Source of the DNA: Bacteroidota bacterium
GTDB lineage: Bacteria > Bacteroidota > Bacteroidia > JAFLBG01
Direction: 5' to 3'
NCBI GenBank assembly: GCA_017303975.1
Contig: JAFLBG010000005.1
Span: 1-39,352 of the forward strand
Length of the DNA: 39,352 nucleotides
Shown: piece by piece, positions 3,250-14,647 of the stretch
Layout of the letters: each line of letters starts with the position of its first letter
How positions within the stretch are numbered: position 1 is the first letter of the stretch
Made by a program: the position numbers and the translations under genes
The notes under the pieces: model-generated
Databases searched by the model: none
What the model saw: only the letters and a program-made list of their open reading frames with translations
What the model was told of the DNA's origin: nothing

Positions 3250-4089
3250 ATGCAGGTTTTTGATAAAAAAATAGCCATTCAGGCCTATATTGAACAGCTT
3301 AAAAAAAGCGGCAACACGGTTGGCTTTGTCCCAACCATGGGTGCATTGCACAAGGGACACATATCTTTAATTGAAGCTGCTAAAAAAGAATGCGACATTG
3401 TAGTAAGCAGTATATTTGTAAACCCTACCCAATTTAACGACAAGAACGATTATACACGGTATCCAAGAACTGTTGATAATGATTTACGCATGTTGGAATT
3501 GGCCGGATGCTCTATCGTATTTACACCTACTGAACAAGAAATGTATCCGGAAAAAGATATTCGTTTTTTTGATTTAGCAGGACTAGACACCCGAATGGAA
3601 GGCGCTCACAGACCTGGACATTTTAACGGTGTAGCACAAATTGTAACAAAGCTTTTTGAAACTGTATTGCCCGACAAAGCTTTTTTTGGGGAAAAAGATT
3701 TTCAACAATTGGCGATTATCAAACATATTACAAAGCAAGCCAACTTACCAATTCAAATTATAGGCTGCCCAACACTGCGTGAAACGGACGGCTTGGCCAT
3801 GAGCTCTCGAAACACATTGCTTACACAACAAGAGAGAGCACTTGCTCCAAAAATTTACCAAGTGCTTACTCAACTAAAAAAAGACATCAATACATTTACA
3901 CTACAAGAATTATGCGCGAGAGCCTTGCAAGAATTAAGTGCAGAGCCTCTTTTTAGTCCGGAATATTTAGAGGTTGTTGATAGCGAAACACTACTACCTG
4001 TTTTTTCGAAAGAAAAAAACAAACGTGTGGTGGTTTGTACTGCAGTAAAACTAGGCAATGTACGCCTTATAGATAATATTATTTTATAA
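3250..4089 (+). CDS. panC: Pantoate-beta-alanine ligase (pantothenate synthetase)
   Basis: PanC joins pantoate and beta-alanine with ATP to make pantothenate, the precursor of coenzyme A, in the cytoplasm. The 279 residues cover the whole family length. Visible motifs are VPTMGALHKGHISLI (residues about 27-41, with the HIGH-like nucleotide site), VNPTQFN (about 57-63), FNGVAQIVTKLF, FFGEKDFQQLAII, and MSSRN for the second half of the ATP site. The gene diverges from the glycogen synthase homologue, and its last 11 bases overlap the convergent pafA end. No panB or panD is next to it in this window. The start ATG precedes a normal N terminus, and no Shine-Dalgarno site is seen, as usual in this phylum. 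Confidence 0.96.
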   Translation: MQVFDKKIAIQAYIEQLKKSGNTVGFVPTMGALHKGHISLIEAAKKECDIVVSSIFVNPTQFNDKNDYTRYPRTVDNDLRMLELAGCSIVFTPTEQEMYPEKDIRFFDLAGLDTRMEGAHRPGHFNGVAQIVTKLFETVLPDKAFFGEKDFQQLAIIKHITKQANLPIQIIGCPTLRETDGLAMSSRNTLLTQQERALAPKIYQVLTQLKKDINTFTLQELCARALQELSAEPLFSPEYLEVVDSETLLPVFSKEKNKRVVVCTAVKLGNVRLIDNIIL

Positions 4090-5719
4090 CTCCGGTTATC
4101 ACTTTTCCTGTACATCCATTTGGATAAGGGATGTTCAAAATATTGGAAAGTGTTGGTGCTATATCCGTAATATTTACAGCTTCATTTGTACTGCCTGATT
4201 TTATTGCTCCTCCGTACCAAATTAAAGGAACGTGTGTATCGTAATTATAAGCAGAACCATGTGTAGTACCGGTATGTTGGTATTCCGTCCATCCGGGATT
4301 AAACGTGATAATCATATCACCGGATCGTTGTGCATTAAATCCATTTTGAATTTTTTTTGTGATGCCATCCGTAAAACTGGTTGTAAGTATCGTTTTTGCA
4401 GTAATTACCGATGCTACACCATCCATTGAATAGGCAATAGATGCAATAGTTTCGTACACTTTTTCAATATCAATATTCTTGGCTTTTATTTTTGCATTAT
4501 CTAAATACACTTGTTGATTTATGTATTCGAGTAATAATGTATCGCCAAACTTTTGTAGCAGTGCAGATGTAACTTGTTTCGCAAAAGCCTTGTCATCGAA
4601 GTATCCTGCAGGTATCTTGTTGTCGATTAGATAAGCAGGAACATCAACAGCACCGTGATCGGCTGTTAAAAAAATAAGTGCGTTTTGTTTACCTACCCAC
4701 ATATCAATAAATTTCAAAAACTCTGCAATGTCTCTATCTAAGCGTAAATAACAGTCTTCCAACTCAATAGATTGTGGACCAAAAGTATGGCCAATATAAT
4801 CGGTAGAAGAGAAACTAAGTGTTAAAAAATCTGTATTGGTCGATTTACCAAGCTGTTCTGCTTTAATAGCTTCTATCGCAAAATCCTTTGTGAGTGAATT
4901 TCCAAATGGTGTAGTGCGAATAATTTTAACCCCCTTGTCTTTATAAAGCGCTGGTAAATCATATGGGAACACCGGTTTCACGCCCGACTTTAAAGAACCT
5001 TCGTACAAATTATCATCGGCTGCGCTCTCCGTGTATTGCTCAATTGGCAATAACGTTGTCCACGGCTTGTTTAGATACTTTTCATATACTTTATTCTCAT
5101 TAAAGGTTTGTGTCCATTTTGGCAACTCGCTTCGGTAGTAAGAGCTGGTAATCCAATTGCCTGCATCCAAATCAAACCAGTAGGCGGCATCTGCCATGTG
5201 CCCCGCTGGCATTATTGCACCTCTATCTTTAAGTGCAATACCAATTACCTTCGATTTCTTGTTGGTATGTAATTTAAGTTGGTCGCAAACGCTTGTAGAG
5301 AGCATGTTTCGTGGCGACATCTGTCCTGCTTTGGTAGTGCTGCCAACCGTTGATTGAGATTTATCTTCTGCGCAATAAATAGTTGTTCCTGTTTTGCGGT
5401 TATACCAATCGTTAGCAATAATACCATGAATTAAAGGTGTTGTACCGGTAAAAATTGATGCATGCCCAGGACCTGTGTAAGTTGGAACATAATTGTAATT
5501 GGTATTCTTACAAAAAAAACCTTCGTTTACCAAACGCCTAAATCCGCCTTGCTGGTATTTATCCCAAAAGCGATAGATGTAATCGTAACGCATTTGATCT
5601 ACTACAATGCCAACAACCAATTTCGGTGCAGTATTCTTTGTAGGTTGAACGGGTTGTTTTTGCTGAGCGAAAATGGTTAGTGTACATAATACACTAAAGA
5701 GTAAACCTGATTTTTTCAT
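4079..5719 (-). CDS. pafA: PafA-type alkaline phosphatase (exported phosphate monoesterase)
   Basis: The 546-residue protein has a signal peptide (MKKSGLLFSVLCTLTIFAQ) and an alkaline-phosphatase-superfamily domain. Metal ligand Asp41 lies in VVDQMR. The nucleophile Thr lies in PTYTGPGHASI (about residue 82), Asn103 in ANDW, and a KDR motif appears in ALKDRGAIMPAGH. Further ligands fit SSTDYIGHTFGP, LTADHG and a THGSAYNYDTHVP segment. This Thr/Asn/KDR set is that of PafA phosphomonoesterases, reported as phosphate-insensitive in Flavobacterium. It would release phosphate from organic phosphomonoesters outside the cytoplasmic membrane. The Met at 5719 is chosen because it opens a clean signal peptide. 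The frame stays open upstream to 5860, where it runs through a REP-like palindromic element, so a longer N terminus starting near 5806 is possible. The endonuclease I gene lies just upstream, separated by a terminator. Confidence 0.9.
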   Translation of the reverse strand: MKKSGLLFSVLCTLTIFAQQKQPVQPTKNTAPKLVVGIVVDQMRYDYIYRFWDKYQQGGFRRLVNEGFFCKNTNYNYVPTYTGPGHASIFTGTTPLIHGIIANDWYNRKTGTTIYCAEDKSQSTVGSTTKAGQMSPRNMLSTSVCDQLKLHTNKKSKVIGIALKDRGAIMPAGHMADAAYWFDLDAGNWITSSYYRSELPKWTQTFNENKVYEKYLNKPWTTLLPIEQYTESAADDNLYEGSLKSGVKPVFPYDLPALYKDKGVKIIRTTPFGNSLTKDFAIEAIKAEQLGKSTNTDFLTLSFSSTDYIGHTFGPQSIELEDCYLRLDRDIAEFLKFIDMWVGKQNALIFLTADHGAVDVPAYLIDNKIPAGYFDDKAFAKQVTSALLQKFGDTLLLEYINQQVYLDNAKIKAKNIDIEKVYETIASIAYSMDGVASVITAKTILTTSFTDGITKKIQNGFNAQRSGDMIITFNPGWTEYQHTGTTHGSAYNYDTHVPLIWYGGAIKSGSTNEAVNITDIAPTLSNILNIPYPNGCTGKVITGVIK

Positions 5720-5728
5720 ATCGAAAAA

Positions 5729-5776
5729 CACACCCCTTTCCCGATAGCTATCGGGACCCTTCTCAAGAGGGGAAAA
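5729..5776 (-). repeat. REP-like palindromic element at the pafA 5' end
   Basis: On the minus strand this reads as a C4-TCTTGAGA-AGGG half-palindrome, then the perfect 18-base palindrome TCCCGATAGCTATCGGGA (5739-5756), then AAGGGGTGTG. It shares both outer parts with the element at 16841-16872, which lacks the inner palindrome. In frame it encodes SPLEKGPDSYRERGVF ahead of the pafA start, against SPLERGLRGVF in the other copy. It is probably a dispersed non-coding repeat. Confidence 0.7.
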
Positions 5777-5820
5777 CACGCACAAGGACTTTTTATTATT
5801 TTTCATACATCTATATTTTA

Positions 5821-5854
5821 ACAAAAAAGCCCCGCAAGTGCGAGGCTTTTTTTT
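5821..5854 (-). terminator. Intrinsic terminator after the endonuclease I gene
   Basis: The arms 5829-5836 and 5839-5846 form a GC-rich stem with one G-U pair on the minus strand. An A run precedes it and a T run follows, so it can work in both directions. It lies 14 bases after the endonuclease I stop and before pafA, which implies that pafA is mainly transcribed separately. Confidence 0.75.
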
Positions 5855-5867
5855 ATTCACTTATTTT

Positions 5868-8102
5868 TTATTCAATAATTAGTTTTTGAGTTGCCTGTAT
5901 GTTTCCATTATCTACTTTAACAACATATACCCCTTTGGATGCATTAGACAAATCAATTGCTTGAGTCATATTAGTCGATTTGTCAATCTGAGTACTCCAA
6001 ATAATTCTACCGGAAATATCAGAAACGCTTATCTGCATATTCTCCTTTATACCCAATGCAACAAATGTAAACTTACCATCTTGAGATGGATTTGGATACA
6101 ACATAAAATCAACTGCATTTTCTTGCTCTACTATGCTGTTCCATGTATTACATGGTAAAGAGGGAGAAGAAATTTTTGTCATCGTATAAAAATCAATATA
6201 ACAAGCAAAATGAACACTATCAATAAATGGATTTCTATTTCCTTGCAATGAATCTAAATAATCATTTCTTGAAATTTCCCAAGAATCTGGTAAATCTTGG
6301 TAGTGCCACTTTTTCAACACATCTTGATTTTGACCATAAGGAATTGTACCGCTTATTGGATTTGGGAACTTCCAGTTATTGCCACTTACACCGTTGTAGC
6401 AAACAGCCATATACATCAACGCTCTTGCAGCATCACCTTTGTGGGAGTCTTTTGGTTCAAAAACTTTTTTTCCATAAACATCAAACCCAAGCTTACAGCC
6501 TTTAAAGGTAGAAAGCGGAGTTCCAACAACCTCCCCTAAAGGATAGTTTAGCCGTATTTGATTTGCATTGGTAAATTCTGTAGGAAACAAGTGATGTTGG
6601 TCGTTGTATTCAGGAAGCTCTACCGGTTGATCTGCCGGGTTAGTAGGCATCCAGTTGTGGCAATACGTATGTTCACGGCTATAATCAGAGGTTGTCCAAC
6701 TAAACGGTGGAGTATAAACATACACATCTCCGCTATACACACAAGTAACATATTTTTGACCATTTGCAGTATCCTGCGCTTCAAAATTATTTAATATTGT
6801 TGGTGCATAATTACCATAAAAATAAGAAGTGTGTGGGTTGATCACAGAACTTAATGTTGTAAGGAAATTCGCATTTGAAACAGATACCCCATTGTAATAA
6901 TTTGCATTTACCATTGTCTTAGCAACGGAAGTGGTAGCATTTTGAAGCGGAGAGGCACTGTACTTGGTATAAGAACTTCCTCCATTAAAGGCATAAACTG
7001 CAAAGTGATAATTTGTGTTTGCAAGTGTATTCTTTAAATAAAATGCGGAATCTAAACCTACGTAACACACTTTAGATACTCCTACATTATCCCCTACTCC
7101 ATAATTAGCACCGTCTGTAGGAACATCAGTAACAGCAGAACCTTTTTTCACTAAAACTATATACCCTGCATCAGGCTTTGGATTTGAGTGATTAAACTTT
7201 GCTTTTATTCTGTATGACTTATTATCTACTACCGTAAAAGCTGCAGGAGATGTTGGTTGTGATGCGAAATTACCACCAATACCATACAAATAAACAACAT
7301 AGCTACTTTCATCAGCATCGTTATTTGAAATAGTTAATGTTGCCAATCGTGTACCGGAAACAGGAGGAGTAAAATCAATATTTATTGTTCCTGTTGATAA
7401 TGCTGTAACAGCAGATGGTGCGCTTGTAATAGTAAAATCACTCTGATTAGTTCCGCTAATAGCTGTGGAGGAAATAGACAAAGTAGTAGCTGTTCCCAAA
7501 TTTTCTACTAGTAATGCATGCGGCATTGTCATACCCACCATTCCCGGCAAATAAATAGTTGAGCCATTGGCTACTTTTAAGTTGTTGTATTTTACATTTA
7601 TTTCTTGCGCTGGTGTAGCAGGCGCAATTGCTAAATTAATGTCATCTATTCCTATATTATGTCCAGAAACTTTATTAACAAAAATAAAACGGATATATCT
7701 ACTTGCGCTATTAGGATTGTCTGTATAAAGCGTATATGCACTTGTTGATGGGGCAGTATGCGAACGAAGCACTGTCCAACTTGTACCATTTACGGATTCC
7801 TCTACATTAAAAGTTCCTTGAAAAGCACCACTCGTATTGTTTCCTTTTAATTGGTAGGTAAGTGCACCGGGAGCATCTGAAAAATAAACCTGTAAATACT
7901 CCCCTGTATTATCGAACTTAGCCGCAAATGGCGCTGACGGAACACTTTGTGTATAAGGATTGTTAGCAACAACACCTTGCTCAGACCAACCTGTAGGTAA
8001 TGTGAAGTTTGTAAAATTCCACGAAGTTGGCAAGGTGGTTTGTGCTATTACTGCCATTGCTGAGCAACCGAACAATAAAATACTTTTTATCTTTTTTATC
8101 AT
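5868..8102 (-). CDS. T9SS-secreted endonuclease I family protein
   Basis: This 744-residue exported nuclease has, in order: a signal peptide (to AVIAQ, residue 21), a discoidin/PKD-like region, and a choice-of-anchor beta domain (about 165-280, ending SNNDADESSYVVYLYGIGG). A spacer and an EndA/NucM-type endonuclease I domain follow (about 400-640), then a T9SS type A sorting domain from LYPNPSQDGKF (about 667) to the end. Nuclease motifs are SREHTYCHNWMPT near 475, DQHHLFPT near 504, KGDAARALMYMAVCY, and ISRNDYLDSLQGNRNPFID. The REH/HH residues supply the beta-beta-alpha metal active site. The enzyme should cut DNA (and RNA) non-specifically outside the cell. It follows the TonB-receptor gene by 42 bases on the same strand and ends at a clear terminator. 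The direct signal peptide supports this ATG. Confidence 0.92.
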   Translation of the reverse strand: MIKKIKSILLFGCSAMAVIAQTTLPTSWNFTNFTLPTGWSEQGVVANNPYTQSVPSAPFAAKFDNTGEYLQVYFSDAPGALTYQLKGNNTSGAFQGTFNVEESVNGTSWTVLRSHTAPSTSAYTLYTDNPNSASRYIRFIFVNKVSGHNIGIDDINLAIAPATPAQEINVKYNNLKVANGSTIYLPGMVGMTMPHALLVENLGTATTLSISSTAISGTNQSDFTITSAPSAVTALSTGTINIDFTPPVSGTRLATLTISNNDADESSYVVYLYGIGGNFASQPTSPAAFTVVDNKSYRIKAKFNHSNPKPDAGYIVLVKKGSAVTDVPTDGANYGVGDNVGVSKVCYVGLDSAFYLKNTLANTNYHFAVYAFNGGSSYTKYSASPLQNATTSVAKTMVNANYYNGVSVSNANFLTTLSSVINPHTSYFYGNYAPTILNNFEAQDTANGQKYVTCVYSGDVYVYTPPFSWTTSDYSREHTYCHNWMPTNPADQPVELPEYNDQHHLFPTEFTNANQIRLNYPLGEVVGTPLSTFKGCKLGFDVYGKKVFEPKDSHKGDAARALMYMAVCYNGVSGNNWKFPNPISGTIPYGQNQDVLKKWHYQDLPDSWEISRNDYLDSLQGNRNPFIDSVHFACYIDFYTMTKISSPSLPCNTWNSIVEQENAVDFMLYPNPSQDGKFTFVALGIKENMQISVSDISGRIIWSTQIDKSTNMTQAIDLSNASKGVYVVKVDNGNIQATQKLIIE

Positions 8103-8144
8103 AATCTATTTCTATATACTTTCTGCTAATTACTTGATCCTATT

Positions 8145-10913
8145 TTAGTAGGTAATTTTCAATCCAATGTTAAATCTTCTGCCTTGTCCCATAAACACTT
8201 GGGCTGTGTAAGCATTAAACCCTAAACCATTTTGCGCATCGGATATAAATTCTGTATTCAACACATTAAATACTCCTCCATTTAAATCAAACTTTAATTT
8301 CCAATATTTAAACCCGTATCCAAAGTTAACATCTACCAAGCCATACGCAGGCATTTGCCATGACTCACGATTTGCATTACCACTTTGAACGGTAAGTGTT
8401 GTTGGGTCGAAATTAGAAAAATTTTTATCGAAGTAGGTGTATTTAGCTTTAATGTATAGAGCTTTAATAGGCTCGTAACGTACGCTACCTGCATACTGAA
8501 TTTGAGCTGCATCACCTACATGTACTCCCTTTGCTTTAAACTCAACAGAATCAACAATTATATTATTATCGTCTGACACGAAAACTTTTTTCTCGGTGTC
8601 TGTAATCCAATCGCCTATAGATATGGCTCCTTCAACATCAATTTTACTTGTTATTTTATAAATTCCATCCAACTCCAATCCCTTATGTATAGCAGTTAAG
8701 CCATTTATATTATAAGAAAAAGTACCATCAGGAGTAGATACAGTAGGAGTGTTTTGTTGGGGCTTATTTTCCCAATGAGTCATGTATGCATTAAAGTTAA
8801 TTGAAACTTTTTGGTGTCTATAACCATAACCAAATTCTAACGCTTTTACTTTTTGGTTTTCAACATCCAAGAATAATTTATTGTTATTGTCAAACACATT
8901 GTTAAAACGTGGAGCCATTTCTAAGTACCCAATATTAGCAAATACGTTGTGATGATCGTTTATGTTGTAATTGCTTCCTCCTTTTATCGTATAACCTAAA
9001 TACCAAACCCTGTCTGTAGTTGCAGCTCGAGCTTCTGCAGAATGATTATAATAAACCTTGTCTTTATAAACAATACTATCATTAGCACCTAACACTTCCT
9101 TAAAGGTGGTATCTGATAATACCAAATCTTTTTTCTTAAAATAATCTATACGTTGGTATCCTGTTTGTGAGCCAGTAAGTGTTAAAAAAGCACTCCATTT
9201 GTTTTTTGTATATTCTAGCTGAACAAATGTACCACCCCAAATAACTATACCATCGTTATGATAAGTAATTTTATCTCCCTTTCTTTTCATTGCAGCTTCT
9301 AAATCGGTTGGTTTTTGATTTTTATTGCTATTGTCTCTGTAATAATCGCCACCTAATAAATCATAAACTTCTTGGTAGTGCATGCCTCGGTAATAACGAG
9401 CATCAAGCCCTCCGGTAAAAGTAAAAGCCGTATCAATGGTCCATATTGCAGTAGAAAGTAAACCTATCCAGTAATGGTTGTTTATAGAGCTTCTAATTAT
9501 GCGCGATGATTTATTTTCTGTGGTACTATACAATGCATCAATCGCAGTAGAATTTTGGTCATATACTTTTTGCATATCCCAAGCACCGGTATTACTATCA
9601 CGTGGTGCTCCAGATGTTGTATTATAGCCTGTTCCACCACCTTTACCAACTGACAAATAAGCAATATTTGATAAATACAACTTAGGAGTTACATTCCAAG
9701 AATGCGAAAGATTGAATTGGGGTTTATGGAAATAATTCATTCGTTCGCTTACATATTCTCCATTTACAATTCCCCAATTAGGGTTAAATGTAGCACCTCT
9801 ATTGCCTTGTGTAGGAGTTGTATATTTATTTGAATCGAATCTGTAAACAGAATCTATTTGAGCATCGGTCATGCCGGCTTTCTTAGCATATTCTTTACTT
9901 AGTATCGGAATTGGCATTTTAAAAGAACGCTGTCCGTGGCTCTGCGGAGCACCTATGGCACTAGCACTTAACAAATGATTCCCTAATCTTTTTTGAATTT
10001 TTATGAAATAAGACCATTGATCATTCCATGTTTGATCTGCCCATCCATCACCTGTAGTTCTTGCTCCTGCTGCAGTAATTCCCCAACCACCTTTAAGTAA
10101 GCCTGAATTAAAAGAAAGGGATGTTTTCAGCATCTTATTATTCCCAACTTCTTGTTTTAAAATAATTGCTCTTTTTTGGTCAATACCCCTAGTCATTACA
10201 TTGATGGTACCACCAACAGAAGCTACTGCTAATTTAGATGCTCCTAAACCTCTTTGTACTTGCATGTTTTGCGTTACATCGGAAAGTCCTGCCCAATTGG
10301 ACCAATACACCCAACCGTTTTCCATATCATTAACCGGAACACCATCAATCATAACAGCTACGTTTCGTTGGTCAAACCCTCGAATAGTAATACGCGCATC
10401 GCCTGCACCTCCACCCTGCTCTGTAGCATAAGCTCCGGGGGTTGAATTTAGCACCATAGGTAAATCTCTATTACCAAGTTCCTCTTGAATTTTTTGTGCA
10501 GATACGTTAGAAAACGCAACGGGAGTTTCGCGCATTTTTGCCACATCGGCTACAACCTCTAACTCTTTGGTAGTATATACTTGTGGTTGAAGTGAAAAGT
10601 TAAACGTTAAGGGCTTATCTGAGATTTTAATTTTTTGCTTTATTGGATTATATCCAATAGAAGTGATAGTAAGTGTGTATTCGCCTTTGTCTAATTTTAG
10701 AGAATAATTTCCGTTGATATCGGTAATGGTGCCCTTTCCATCGGCAACGGTAACATTGGCTCCGATGATGGTTTCACCGGTTTCAGGATCTTTGATAGTT
10801 CCTTTAACTTCTCCTTTACCTTCATTACCCTCCTGTGCAGGAAGGGTAATGAAGCAAAGAATTGTAAAAATTGTAAGGAATAAAAATCGTACTTGAATAG
10901 CTGCTTTATTCAT
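8145..10913 (-). CDS. TonB-dependent outer-membrane receptor with CarboxypepD-reg domain
   Basis: The 922-residue protein starts with a signal peptide (to about residue 26). A carboxypeptidase-regulatory-like beta domain follows (about 35-110: GTIKDPETGETIIGANVTV, then SIGYNPIKQKIKI). The plug domain (about 125-245) has GGGAGDARITIRGFDQRNV and SVGGTINVMTRG, and a beta-barrel ends in RFNIGLKITY, an aromatic-terminated last strand. No SusD partner is adjacent, so it is not a standard SusCD pair. Imported substrate cannot be read from sequence. Its position between a secreted lamin-tail protein (34-base gap) and a secreted endonuclease (42-base gap) suggests uptake of a nucleic-acid product or a linked ion, which is inference. 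It is co-transcribed with both neighbours, judging by strand and spacing. Confidence 0.93.
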   Translation of the reverse strand: MNKAAIQVRFLFLTIFTILCFITLPAQEGNEGKGEVKGTIKDPETGETIIGANVTVADGKGTITDINGNYSLKLDKGEYTLTITSIGYNPIKQKIKISDKPLTFNFSLQPQVYTTKELEVVADVAKMRETPVAFSNVSAQKIQEELGNRDLPMVLNSTPGAYATEQGGGAGDARITIRGFDQRNVAVMIDGVPVNDMENGWVYWSNWAGLSDVTQNMQVQRGLGASKLAVASVGGTINVMTRGIDQKRAIILKQEVGNNKMLKTSLSFNSGLLKGGWGITAAGARTTGDGWADQTWNDQWSYFIKIQKRLGNHLLSASAIGAPQSHGQRSFKMPIPILSKEYAKKAGMTDAQIDSVYRFDSNKYTTPTQGNRGATFNPNWGIVNGEYVSERMNYFHKPQFNLSHSWNVTPKLYLSNIAYLSVGKGGGTGYNTTSGAPRDSNTGAWDMQKVYDQNSTAIDALYSTTENKSSRIIRSSINNHYWIGLLSTAIWTIDTAFTFTGGLDARYYRGMHYQEVYDLLGGDYYRDNSNKNQKPTDLEAAMKRKGDKITYHNDGIVIWGGTFVQLEYTKNKWSAFLTLTGSQTGYQRIDYFKKKDLVLSDTTFKEVLGANDSIVYKDKVYYNHSAEARAATTDRVWYLGYTIKGGSNYNINDHHNVFANIGYLEMAPRFNNVFDNNNKLFLDVENQKVKALEFGYGYRHQKVSINFNAYMTHWENKPQQNTPTVSTPDGTFSYNINGLTAIHKGLELDGIYKITSKIDVEGAISIGDWITDTEKKVFVSDDNNIIVDSVEFKAKGVHVGDAAQIQYAGSVRYEPIKALYIKAKYTYFDKNFSNFDPTTLTVQSGNANRESWQMPAYGLVDVNFGYGFKYWKLKFDLNGGVFNVLNTEFISDAQNGLGFNAYTAQVFMGQGRRFNIGLKITY

Positions 10914-10947
10914 GGGTTATAAAAGTTAAGTAGCTAGTTGTGTAGCA

Positions 10948-11865
10948 CTATTGCTTAGCTACTTTCACTAACTTGTTATTTACTGAACTATCTGCAAATT
11001 TTACATTTACAAAATAAAGTCCTTTAGGTAAATTAGAGTTTAATTCTACTTGAACTTTAGATGAATTATCTGCAACAGAAACAACATTAACTAAACTTCC
11101 TAAAGCATCGTATACTTCAATTGACTTAATGTCAGAAGATGCAACGATATTAACTTTTGAGGCAGTAGGGTTAGGATATACAGATACTTTTGCAGTAGAT
11201 GTAATTTCGCTAAGACCTGTGTTACCACAGCTACAAACGTGGCCTTTTAATTGAGACCAAGTATCTCTTGGAAGAGTGTCCCATTGTGCAAATGCATTAA
11301 ATGCAGTAGGATTAGTAGTTACACCTGTTGTAACCGAAGACTTTCTGATCATAGTTTGATCTTTAGTTAAATAAGCACCAGTTCCTGTGTTATAAGGAAA
11401 AACATCATCCCAACCTCCACCAGTAGGTTGTTCTCCTATTTTACCAACAATATCAATAATTTTGTACGGAGAAATTTTCACCAACAACATAGCATCATCG
11501 CCATTAAAATACAACGGATCTGGGTATGCATTTCCTAATTTATCTGCTAATGCTTGCAAAATTGGGCTGCATGCCGGAGAACTAGTTTGGCTAGTAGTTT
11601 GACCATTGGCTGCTACATAAACACTATGAGCACCAAGAGTTCCAGATAAATCTAAACTATCAGCACCAACAGATTGTCCATTTGAATATCTTACAATTCT
11701 ATAATTGGCCATATTTACCGAACCTGAAGTCGGATTATATATTTCCATTGCCTTGCTATTCCCAGAACCTTCTACATATTCCGAAAAAAATAATTCATCA
11801 CATTGAGCAAAAGCTGCAGTGCTCAATCCTGCTAATACTACTAAAGAAAGTAATTTACGCTTCAT
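10948..11865 (-). CDS. Lamin-tail-domain protein with T9SS sorting signal
   Basis: The 305-residue exported protein has a signal peptide MKRKLLSLVVLAGLSTAAFA, then a lamin-tail domain (about 22-170: LFFSEYVEGSGNSKAMEIYN, then NYRIVRYSNGQ and LSGTLGAHSVYVAANGQ). A short Cys-containing segment (VCSCGN) follows, then a T9SS type A sorting domain from VYPNPTASKVNI (about 236) to the end (KLVKVAKQ). Lamin-tail domains in bacteria often accompany or are fused to secreted nucleases and phosphatases. Here a receptor and an endonuclease I follow on the same strand. The start at 11865 is chosen because it opens a proper signal peptide and lies about 35 bases after a good promoter; the upstream in-frame ATG at 11952 would lie upstream of that promoter. 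It is probably surface-attached or released. Confidence 0.88.
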   Translation of the reverse strand: MKRKLLSLVVLAGLSTAAFAQCDELFFSEYVEGSGNSKAMEIYNPTSGSVNMANYRIVRYSNGQSVGADSLDLSGTLGAHSVYVAANGQTTSQTSSPACSPILQALADKLGNAYPDPLYFNGDDAMLLVKISPYKIIDIVGKIGEQPTGGGWDDVFPYNTGTGAYLTKDQTMIRKSSVTTGVTTNPTAFNAFAQWDTLPRDTWSQLKGHVCSCGNTGLSEITSTAKVSVYPNPTASKVNIVASSDIKSIEVYDALGSLVNVVSVADNSSKVQVELNSNLPKGLYFVNVKFADSSVNNKLVKVAKQ

Positions 11866-11905: not shown

Positions 11906-11937
11906 CAAAGATAGCTTATAAAAGCAACATAAAACAA
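11906..11937 (-). promoter_or_regulatory. Promoter of the lamin-tail/TonB receptor/endonuclease unit
   Basis: On the minus strand TTG (11935-11937) is followed after 21 bases by TATCTTTG (11906-11913), a full -7 match for Bacteroidota. Transcription would begin near 11900, leaving a leader of about 35 bases. It is the only good promoter upstream of the three close-spaced genes, so it probably drives all of them. Confidence 0.6.
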
Positions 11938-12172: not shown

Positions 12173-13138
12173 CTAATAGTACTTGTTAGGAAGTAAATAA
12201 TTTTGCACATAGTCTTGTACACCATCCTCTAATACCGTGAAGGATTTGGTGTAACCAATAGACTTCAGCTTACTCATATTGGCTTCGGTAAAATATTGAT
12301 ATTTATCGCGTATATCAACAGGAGTGTCAATAAAATCAATTACTTCGGGCTTGCTTAATGCCTTGAAAGTGTTTTTTGTTAAATCTAAAAAAGTCCGAGC
12401 CTTACCACTGCCTAAATTATAAATTCCGGAATCTTTTCTGTGGTGAAACAAAAAATAACACACCTCCACTACATCTTTTACATACACAAAATCTCGCAAC
12501 TGCTCTCCATCTTTATAGTTTGGATTATGCGACTTGAACAGTTTCATGCTGCCAGTTTTCTGAATTTGATGATATGCATGGAATATAACGGAAGCCATTC
12601 TTCCTTTATGATACTCGTTGGGACCATACACATTGAAAAATTTTAACCCTGCCCAAAAGTAAGGTTGCTTGGCTTGTTTAACAGCCCACTTATCAAAATC
12701 ATTTTTAGAATCTCCATACGGATTCAAAGGTTTTAACTTCTCAATAATTGTATGATTATCTTCATACCCAAACTCTCCTAAACCGTAGGTTGCCGCAGAA
12801 GACGCATAAACTAATGGAAGGCCATATTCACAACATTTATCCCAAACAGCTTTGGTGTAATTCAAATTCAGTTTATCGAAAATATCTTTATTGAATTCAG
12901 TAGTATCTGTGCGGGCCCCAATATGAAATACAAACTGAATGAATTTATGATTAGCTTCTATCCATGAAACAAAACTATCGCGTTCTATTCTTTTTGATAT
13001 TCTCTTCCCTTCTAGATTAGGGAGTTTCATCTCAGATGAAAAATCATCTACTGCAACAATGTCAAAATATCCCTCTTGATTTAATTTACTAATTAAACAA
13101 CTTCCTATAAAACCTGCAGCGCCTGTTACAACTATCAT
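12173..13138 (-). CDS. hldD: ADP-L-glycero-D-manno-heptose 6-epimerase
   Basis: HldD converts ADP-D-glycero-D-manno-heptose to the L,D form used in the LPS inner core. The 321 residues form an extended SDR. TGAAGFIGS (5-13) is the NADP-binding Gly motif. VDDFSS follows the second strand, SSAATYG is near 113-119, and YGDSK has catalytic Tyr141 and Lys145. KFFNVYGPNEYHKGRMASV and LRDFVYVKDVV are typical of the heptose epimerase subgroup, and the length matches. It is the last gene of a three-gene run after mqnB and mqnD, with a 10-base gap from mqnD, although it belongs to a different pathway. The start ATG lies directly before the first beta strand. Confidence 0.92.
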   Translation of the reverse strand: MIVVTGAAGFIGSCLISKLNQEGYFDIVAVDDFSSEMKLPNLEGKRISKRIERDSFVSWIEANHKFIQFVFHIGARTDTTEFNKDIFDKLNLNYTKAVWDKCCEYGLPLVYASSAATYGLGEFGYEDNHTIIEKLKPLNPYGDSKNDFDKWAVKQAKQPYFWAGLKFFNVYGPNEYHKGRMASVIFHAYHQIQKTGSMKLFKSHNPNYKDGEQLRDFVYVKDVVEVCYFLFHHRKDSGIYNLGSGKARTFLDLTKNTFKALSKPEVIDFIDTPVDIRDKYQYFTEANMSKLKSIGYTKSFTVLEDGVQDYVQNYLLPNKYY

Positions 13139-13148
13139 AATTATCTAT

Positions 13149-13976
13149 TTACAAAAAAATTGATTGATTAAAGTTAGTGATAATTCTTTTTTCAATTGCC
13201 TTATCAAAAAGAGTTTGCACAGCGCGCTTACCATCAATACCTAAATCAACAGAATACTTATTTACATACAAATCTATGTGCTTCTGTATAACAGACTCAT
13301 CCATCTCTTGCGCATGCTTCTTTACATATTCTCTACTAGCACTTGGATTTGCAAAGGCATACTCAACACTTTTACGTATTAATCTATCTATTTTAAGTTG
13401 AATCGATTTTTCTATTTTTCTATTAACCACAATACCTCCTAACGGGATTGCACTACCCGTAAGCGTTTCCCAATATTCTCCTAAGTCAATTATTTTTACA
13501 AGGCCTTTCTGTTCGTAGGTAAATCTATTTTCGTGTATAATAACACCTGCGGCTACCTTGCCAGACAAAACAGCATTTTCAATATCAGAAAACAGCATTT
13601 CTGTTTTGTTTTTTGCATCAGGATAGGCTAATGAAAACAGTAAGTTGGCAGTAGTATATTTTCCGGGAATAGCAACTGTCATTTCTTCAACTTTAAACTT
13701 TAAATTTTGAGCTTGCGTAATTAATAACGGTCCACAGCCAAAACCTAGTGCGCTACCGGAGTTTAGTAATGCATACCTATCTACCAAATGCATATATGCA
13801 TGGTAGCTTAATTTAGAAATATCGAGTTCGCCTTGAAAAGCCTTGGTATTCAAAGACTCTACATCTTCCATTACGACATCAAACTCCAATCCTTCTAAAT
13901 CAATCTTACCATTTACCAAGGCATCAAAAATAAAACAATCATTGGGGCAAGGGCTAAAGCCTAATGTATATCGCAC
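13149..13976 (-). CDS. mqnD: 1,4-dihydroxy-6-naphthoate synthase (menaquinone, futalosine route)
   Basis: MqnD acts on cyclic dehypoxanthine futalosine to give 1,4-dihydroxy-6-naphthoate in the futalosine pathway to menaquinone. The 275-residue protein has the MqnA/MqnD periplasmic-binding-protein-like fold. It begins YTLGFSPCPNDCFIFDAL, the family signature, with DISKLSYHAY near 53-62, GSALGFGCGPLLI near 77-90 and AAGVIIHENRFTY near 137-150. It follows mqnB by 11 bases and precedes hldD by 10. The start is GTG at 13976; no in-frame ATG fits, since the next Met would remove the conserved N-terminal motif. Confidence 0.92.
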   Translation of the reverse strand: MRYTLGFSPCPNDCFIFDALVNGKIDLEGLEFDVVMEDVESLNTKAFQGELDISKLSYHAYMHLVDRYALLNSGSALGFGCGPLLITQAQNLKFKVEEMTVAIPGKYTTANLLFSLAYPDAKNKTEMLFSDIENAVLSGKVAAGVIIHENRFTYEQKGLVKIIDLGEYWETLTGSAIPLGGIVVNRKIEKSIQLKIDRLIRKSVEYAFANPSASREYVKKHAQEMDESVIQKHIDLYVNKYSVDLGIDGKRAVQTLFDKAIEKRIITNFNQSIFL

Positions 13977-13987
13977 GTATCGGTAGT

Positions 13988-14647
13988 TTAAAGTGAGTGG
14001 ATTATATTTAGTAACTCTTCATTCAAATTTTTTATAGCCAAAAGAATATTCCATTTACTTCTATCTCTTCTCTCCACATAGTTAGAAATACTTCGTATTT
14101 GAAAATAAGGTGTAGCTTGATTTTCCATAGCATACATAAAAGCTGCTCCTTCCATAGTCTCTACATCAGACTTTATCCTACTTTCAATTTTTGAAATAGA
14201 TGTATCGTTTCCATGCACAGTATTTACTGTAATTCCGGAAACCTTTCTTAAAGAACGAATGATTTCGTTTTTACTTTCCAATATGTTTTCGAATTTATTT
14301 TTTCCGGGCAAATTCAATTCTTCAAATTTCAAAAATTTATCTCCATCTTCTGCTCCTAGTTCATAAATACAATCGGTTGTAACATTTACGACTTCACCTA
14401 TTGACAGTTGCTTGTTTATCGCACCACAAATACCAACATTCAAAATTAAATCGTATATATTATTTTGCAAACGCCTGCCTAGTTCGAATGCTGTGGCGAC
14501 CATGCCTACAGAGGTTATGAGTATGTCTACAATGCATTTCTCACTAGAAAATCTAGATACATTATTTGTGTCTATAGAAATAAACTTCAACCGAGAAACC
14601 AAAATTTCAACCTCCGATTTGGTGGCAGCAACAATAAGCAGTTTCAA
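13988..14647 (-). CDS. mqnB: Futalosine hydrolase
   Basis: MqnB removes hypoxanthine from futalosine to give dehypoxanthine futalosine in menaquinone synthesis. The 219 residues belong to the nucleoside phosphorylase/MTA-SAH nucleosidase fold: LLIVAATKSEVEIL at the start, ILITSVGMVATAFELGRRL near 45-65, LILNVGICGAINKQLSIGEV near 68-90, and VETMEGAAFMYA near 160 with the Glu that contacts the ribose. The start is TTG at 14647. An in-frame stop lies a few codons upstream and no ATG is available. The gene is first in the mqnB-mqnD-hldD run. No clean promoter was seen between it and the divergent pterin gene. Confidence 0.9.
   Translation of the reverse strand: MKLLIVAATKSEVEILVSRLKFISIDTNNVSRFSSEKCIVDILITSVGMVATAFELGRRLQNNIYDLILNVGICGAINKQLSIGEVVNVTTDCIYELGAEDGDKFLKFEELNLPGKNKFENILESKNEIIRSLRKVSGITVNTVHGNDTSISKIESRIKSDVETMEGAAFMYAMENQATPYFQIRSISNYVERRDRSKWNILLAIKNLNEELLNIIHSL

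Follow-up and report, generated by a model that had tools for sequence, protein, structure and literature searches.

Among the described systems closest to the locus reported here is an operon of Riemerella anatipestifer, a species in which no pilus homologues have been detected and in which insertions in RA0C_RS04915, polar on RA0C_RS04920, abolish natural transformation (PMC8459023). The first of these genes encodes an outer-membrane protein with a CarboxypepD_reg domain and the second a DUF5689/DUF5017 protein; both are listed as essential, and in F. columnare an extra small gene lies between the receptor and DUF5689 genes (PMC8459023). SusCD/RagAB importers also combine a TonB-dependent receptor, bearing a CarbopepD_reg N-domain, with a surface partner, and ExeM-type extracellular nucleases (NF033680) carry a lamin-tail domain (LTD). 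Finally, putative DNA-degradation loci of Candidatus Izemoplasma group extracellular nucleases with the LTD domain and with nucleotidases or transporters, as do the present locus and its relatives, but they belong to Gram-positive-type organisms, rely on ABC transporters and include neither a TonB receptor nor the type IX system (T9SS) (PMC8289736).

The window, that is, the whole stretch of 39,352 nucleotides of a Bacteroidota bacterium (contig JAFLBG010000005.1) that was analysed, contains the following features of the locus.

11906-11937, minus strand: promoter-like pair TTG-N21-TATCTTTG, Bacteroidota-type, 5' of the LTD gene, a consensus match by eye
10948-11865, minus strand: predicted T9SS-secreted lamin-tail-domain (LTD) protein, 305 aa, from Pfam and tail matches
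8145-10913, minus strand: TonB-dependent receptor of clade A1, 922 aa, with CarbopepD_reg_2 and Plug
5868-8102, minus strand: predicted T9SS-secreted endonuclease I, 744 aa, with PF04231, a T9SS tail and the REH motif
5823-5852, minus strand: predicted Rho-independent terminator hairpin at the 3' end of the three-gene operon, from folding energy against shuffles
4079-5719, minus strand: PafA alkaline phosphatase, 546 aa (NF042991), outside the conserved unit

The original prediction described the first three genes as a closely spaced unit that ends at a single terminator, and the coordinates, all on the minus strand, and the hairpin folding bear this out. As predicted, the LTD and receptor genes are separated by 34 bases and the receptor and endonuclease I genes by 42, and the hairpin, which is accompanied by U-tracts and lies directly 3' of endonuclease I, folds with -19.2 kcal/mol (z -5.4; none of 200 shuffles was as stable). 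Because of this position of the terminator, PafA lies beyond the end of the operon. As to the good shared promoter that had been proposed, a Bacteroidota-type pair is readable by eye, as a consensus match, 5' of the LTD gene (TTG at 11937-11935, 21 bases, TATCTTTG at 11913-11906), whereas a generic sigma-70 scan returned promoter-like sites in no excess over shuffles (34 vs 38). Further 5' of the operon, positions 12173-14647 hold ordinary housekeeping genes, one for an ADP-heptose epimerase and two for menaquinone synthesis by the futalosine pathway. A perfect 18-base palindrome, TCCCGATAGCTATCGGGA, is located just 5' of PafA at 5739-5756 and has only two copies in the genome.

Domain searches agree with all four gene identities that had been assigned. 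The LTD protein matches PF00932 (E 2e-12) and ends in a type-A T9SS tail; the corresponding sorting domain (TIGR04183/PF18962) scores over the cut-off in both this protein and endonuclease I. Its N-terminal two thirds resemble the LTD part of the exonuclease ExeM (E 1e-21), but in contrast to the ExeM type it has no nuclease domain, the nuclease being encoded by a separate gene. An AlphaFold model built on the LTD alignment (mean pLDDT 77) comprises two beta-sandwich domains; lamin A/C and C-terminal domains of T9SS proteins are among the Foldseek matches, and the modelled fold is consistent with an LTD plus a sorting domain. The receptor shows the domains that define a TonB-dependent receptor, namely Plug (PF07715, E 1e-13) and the N-terminal CarbopepD_reg domain (PF13715, E 6e-17), and is probably an outer-membrane importer; by sequence, it has only weak relatives in the PDB. 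Unlike in SusCD/RagAB importers, to whose solved SusC homologues it is weakly similar, no SusD-like lipoprotein is encoded next to the receptor in the window, where its neighbours are instead the T9SS-type LTD protein, its probable partner in DNA handling at the surface, and endonuclease I. The latter matches PF04231 (E 4e-27) over positions 7-233 of 235, and hence over the full catalytic domain, contains the REH motif in the alignment and aligns with the Vibrio nuclease 1OUP/2IVK. The same genome holds a second, stand-alone endonuclease I in a 369-aa frame (G000:C36:3384-4055; L001, L051). PafA is recognised by NF042991 with 799 bits (cut-off 650).

The conservation of this arrangement was assessed in the receptor clade A1, the profile of which was seeded with 13 receptors from genomes of the same class, found by receptor similarity. 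The loci comprise 80 named loci from GTDB contigs, where at least 576 relatives exist, together with further ones from 295 Bacteroidia genomes, giving 112 distinct A1 loci, or 98 at <80%, 77 at <70% and 51 at <60% receptor identity. They were fetched by receptor sequence and not by their neighbours, yet an LTD protein accompanies all 13 seed receptors. The A1 receptors form one clade in the tree (SH-aLRT 98). An LTD gene lies upstream of the receptor in 97 of the 102 A1 loci with enough sequence, a predicted nuclease is present in 84/94 and both occur together in 83/94, with median gaps of 51 and 20 bases, while the genes flanking the cassette vary between lineages. Among 20 control loci of neighbouring receptor clades there were no LTD genes and one nuclease (Fisher P 1e-18 and 2e-13, values that are too optimistic because all 13 seeds have the LTD protein and closely related lineages do not count as independent observations). 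A receptor gene with LTD and nuclease neighbours recurs in no fewer than 24 sampled families, and since the grouping is conserved across homologous loci, it is more than chance. The co-occurrence of this receptor clade with LTD and nuclease neighbours, on which the original prediction had staked itself, was therefore found, and its core idea of a surface DNA-handling set distinct from SusCD is strongly supported by the conservation in A1.

Several further observations concern the receptors and their loci. A neighbouring receptor clade (L047, L178, L161-L166) occurs without LTD or nuclease genes, and in L047 it has NAD-synthesis-like genes beside it. One record, CP034120.1 (L054), is titled Glaciecola amylolytica, the name of a gammaproteobacterium, but contains the full cassette and the 5'-nucleotidase pair within Crocinitomicaceae-like flanks and is probably mislabelled. 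Receptor net charge, considered as a sign of DNA binding, showed no clear difference between the clades, and the motif D-L-x-G-G was discarded as a common mark of A1 and the Riemerella-type family A4 (see below), as some other receptors have it too.

The position of the nuclease in A1 loci is filled by proteins of unrelated folds, with endonuclease I in 56 loci, a PLDc_2 protein in 30 and both in 2. The catalytic motifs are retained in nearly all of them (REH in 60/61 endonuclease I proteins and HxK in 34/35 of the PLD type). The PLDc_2 proteins usually begin with a DUF5689-like domain and end in a T9SS tail, and DUF5689 is also found on the N-terminal side of some endonuclease I proteins of A1 loci. 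From the slot that they occupy we infer that the PLD proteins are nucleases, though phospholipase activity is also possible for them. Roughly one A1 locus in ten has no adjoining nuclease. In nine cases the operon extends downstream into a two-gene 5'-nucleotidase, composed of the C-terminal domain (PF02872) and Metallophos (PF00149), and an Exo_endo_phos_3 nuclease lies near six A1 loci. In L099 and L109, one 1030-aa protein matches both the endonuclease I and the LTD profiles, a possible fusion; likewise, a single 1318-aa frame in L092 matches LTD and receptor and may be a fusion. A protein of 144-162 aa follows the receptor, mostly before the nuclease, in L036 (lipocalin-like), L037, L183, L188, L190, L192, L195 and L196, and in the A1 locus L198 receptor, PLD-type nuclease and recA stand in a row on the same strand.

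To compare the cassette with the Riemerella operon, family A4 was defined in 10 genomes of two families (f54, f63) by a strong DUF5689 match directly downstream of a receptor of 910-957 aa, two of the ten having one small gene in between. A4 would be the family of the RA0C_RS04915/RA0C_RS04920 operon, recognised by its architecture. Among 30 A4 loci, 29 encode the DUF5689 protein, 24 an Exo_endo_phos_3 nuclease, four a PLD protein, two endonuclease I and two a 5'-nucleotidase. The cassette and the Riemerella operon therefore have in common a CarboxypepD_reg TonB-type receptor adjoining a surface protein, as well as the DUF5689 domain and nucleases as partners, with PLD, endonuclease I and 5'-nucleotidase modules appearing in relatives of the latter. 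They differ in receptor clade, in that the LTD protein replaces the DUF5689/DUF5017 protein and in that the cassette has a dedicated T9SS nuclease within the operon; moreover, the transformation data are those of Riemerella. The homology between A1 and A4 receptors extends along the entire protein, at 21-22% identity (hhalign 21%), but they fall into separate clades, and a quick tree joins A4, on a long branch, to other receptors that lack a link to nucleases (99). With A4 as a stand-in, profile scores and tree rule out that the window receptor is an orthologue of RA0C_RS04915, while the functional analogy is kept: by association, the cassette may work like the Riemerella operon, even though its receptor lies outside the A4 clade and no DUF5689 protein is encoded downstream. 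The genome of the window lacks an A4 receptor at E 1e-90 and a DUF5689 protein at 1e-6.

With scoring confined to three candidates in each of the 295 Bacteroidia genomes, A1 was found in 80, A4 in 63 and both in none, where about 17 would be expected (P 1e-10 if genomes are independent). This exclusion is not taken as proof, as phylogeny confounds it and explains part of it, and the deficit at the family level is weak, three families having both A1 and A4 where 5.7 are expected (P ~0.1). In these families (f3, f20, f29), A1 and A4 occur in different genera.

Components that could act on DNA further inward are present as well. The window's genome encodes ComEC, DprA and a protein of 307 aa that bears three HhH motifs, and no T2SSE/pilus ATPase scored over the Pfam cut-off, so that a type IV pilus ATPase is not clearly present. 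The set corresponds to the inner part of the Riemerella scheme, whereas the outer part is another one. These inner genes are common across the class and do not single out the cassette: the HhH protein is carried by 272/295 genomes whether or not an A1 or A4 receptor is present, and its distribution is uninformative as a test of a link to competence.

We propose that the three genes constitute a surface system that depends on T9SS and TonB and takes up extracellular DNA, a reading to which we give an even chance. The LTD protein and the nuclease would be exported by the type IX system and retained at the cell surface, where the LTD protein may bind nucleic acid and present it to the receptor. 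DNA would be cut by endonuclease I, or by the PLD-type enzyme in other lineages, and the TonB-energised receptor would then move DNA-derived poly- or oligonucleotides to the periplasm. There, 5'-nucleotidases, encoded in the same operon in some lineages, would set nucleosides and phosphate free, while some of the DNA could travel further inward through the generic ComEC/DprA/HhH machinery. Conservation, nuclease swapping with retained catalytic motifs, the downstream 5'-nucleotidase pair, the protein that matches both endonuclease I and LTD, accessory genes common to A4, the non-overlap of A1 and A4, and the ComEC, DprA and multi-HhH genes of a genome with no clear pilus ATPase speak for uptake; against it stand the lack of orthology with A4, the confounding of the non-overlap by phylogeny, the possibility that PLD proteins are phospholipases and the tenth of loci without a nuclease. 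In the best reading the imported DNA would serve nutrition, and possibly transformation; substrate, transport direction, the function of the LTD protein and any role in transformation are inferred.

The main rival to the import of DNA pieces is the nutritional import of small nucleotides, in which the secreted nuclease would break DNA down extracellularly and mono- or short oligonucleotides, nucleosides or phosphate would enter through the receptor as food, with neither polymeric import nor transformation. We consider this possible, though on balance unlikely. The secreted nucleases and the 5'-nucleotidase pair of some operons fit such scavenging, as does the assimilation of DNA carbon in sediments by Bacteroidota such as Lutibacter (PMC8289736), but a dedicated surface LTD protein would hardly be needed for nucleotides alone, and in Riemerella the A4 operon, whose architecture matches, is essential for transformation, i.e., for the entry of gene-length DNA (PMC8459023).

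More doubtful is the extension of DNA uptake to a role as the outer-membrane DNA importer of natural transformation in the many Bacteroidota families without type IV pili and without the Riemerella-type operon, in which a TonB-driven channel with interchangeable surface nucleases would take the place of pilus and secretin. Secreted nucleases also have roles in biofilms and defence in other bacteria, and the cassette might accordingly be a surface DNase that remodels biofilms or serves defence, its receptor taking up some unrelated substance, e.g., a metal that the nuclease needs. This appears improbable, as receptor, LTD protein and nuclease remain together in no fewer than 24 sampled families even though the fold of the nuclease varies, an indication of a shared nucleic-acid substrate and not of the cofactor of one enzyme. 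Least of all do we expect the four-gene phosphate-scavenging locus of the original prediction, for although PafA hydrolyses phosphomonoesters, is adjacent on the same strand and has a homologue two genes away from one A4 receptor locus (L236, the single instance noted, which also holds endonuclease I and Exo_endo_phos_3), it lies past the intervening terminator and adjoins none of the homologous A1 loci examined, and it was hence rejected as a member of the unit. The emphasis on phosphate scavenging is unproven; the two-part 5'-nucleotidases that occur in roughly one locus in ten lend it at most indirect support.

No literature describing LTD protein, receptor and endonuclease I as a unit was found in a search that left most subscription journals outside its scope. 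For the entry of DNA across the outer membrane of pilus-less Bacteroidota, one operon, in one family, is known genetically. With A1 comes another receptor family whose partners are of a similar kind; it is spread over 24 sampled families, was never found in one genome with A4 and has a nuclease slot occupied by two unrelated folds. The cassette would thereby provide concrete candidate genes for DNA feeding and, possibly, gene transfer in Bacteroidota from freshwater, marine and sludge habitats.
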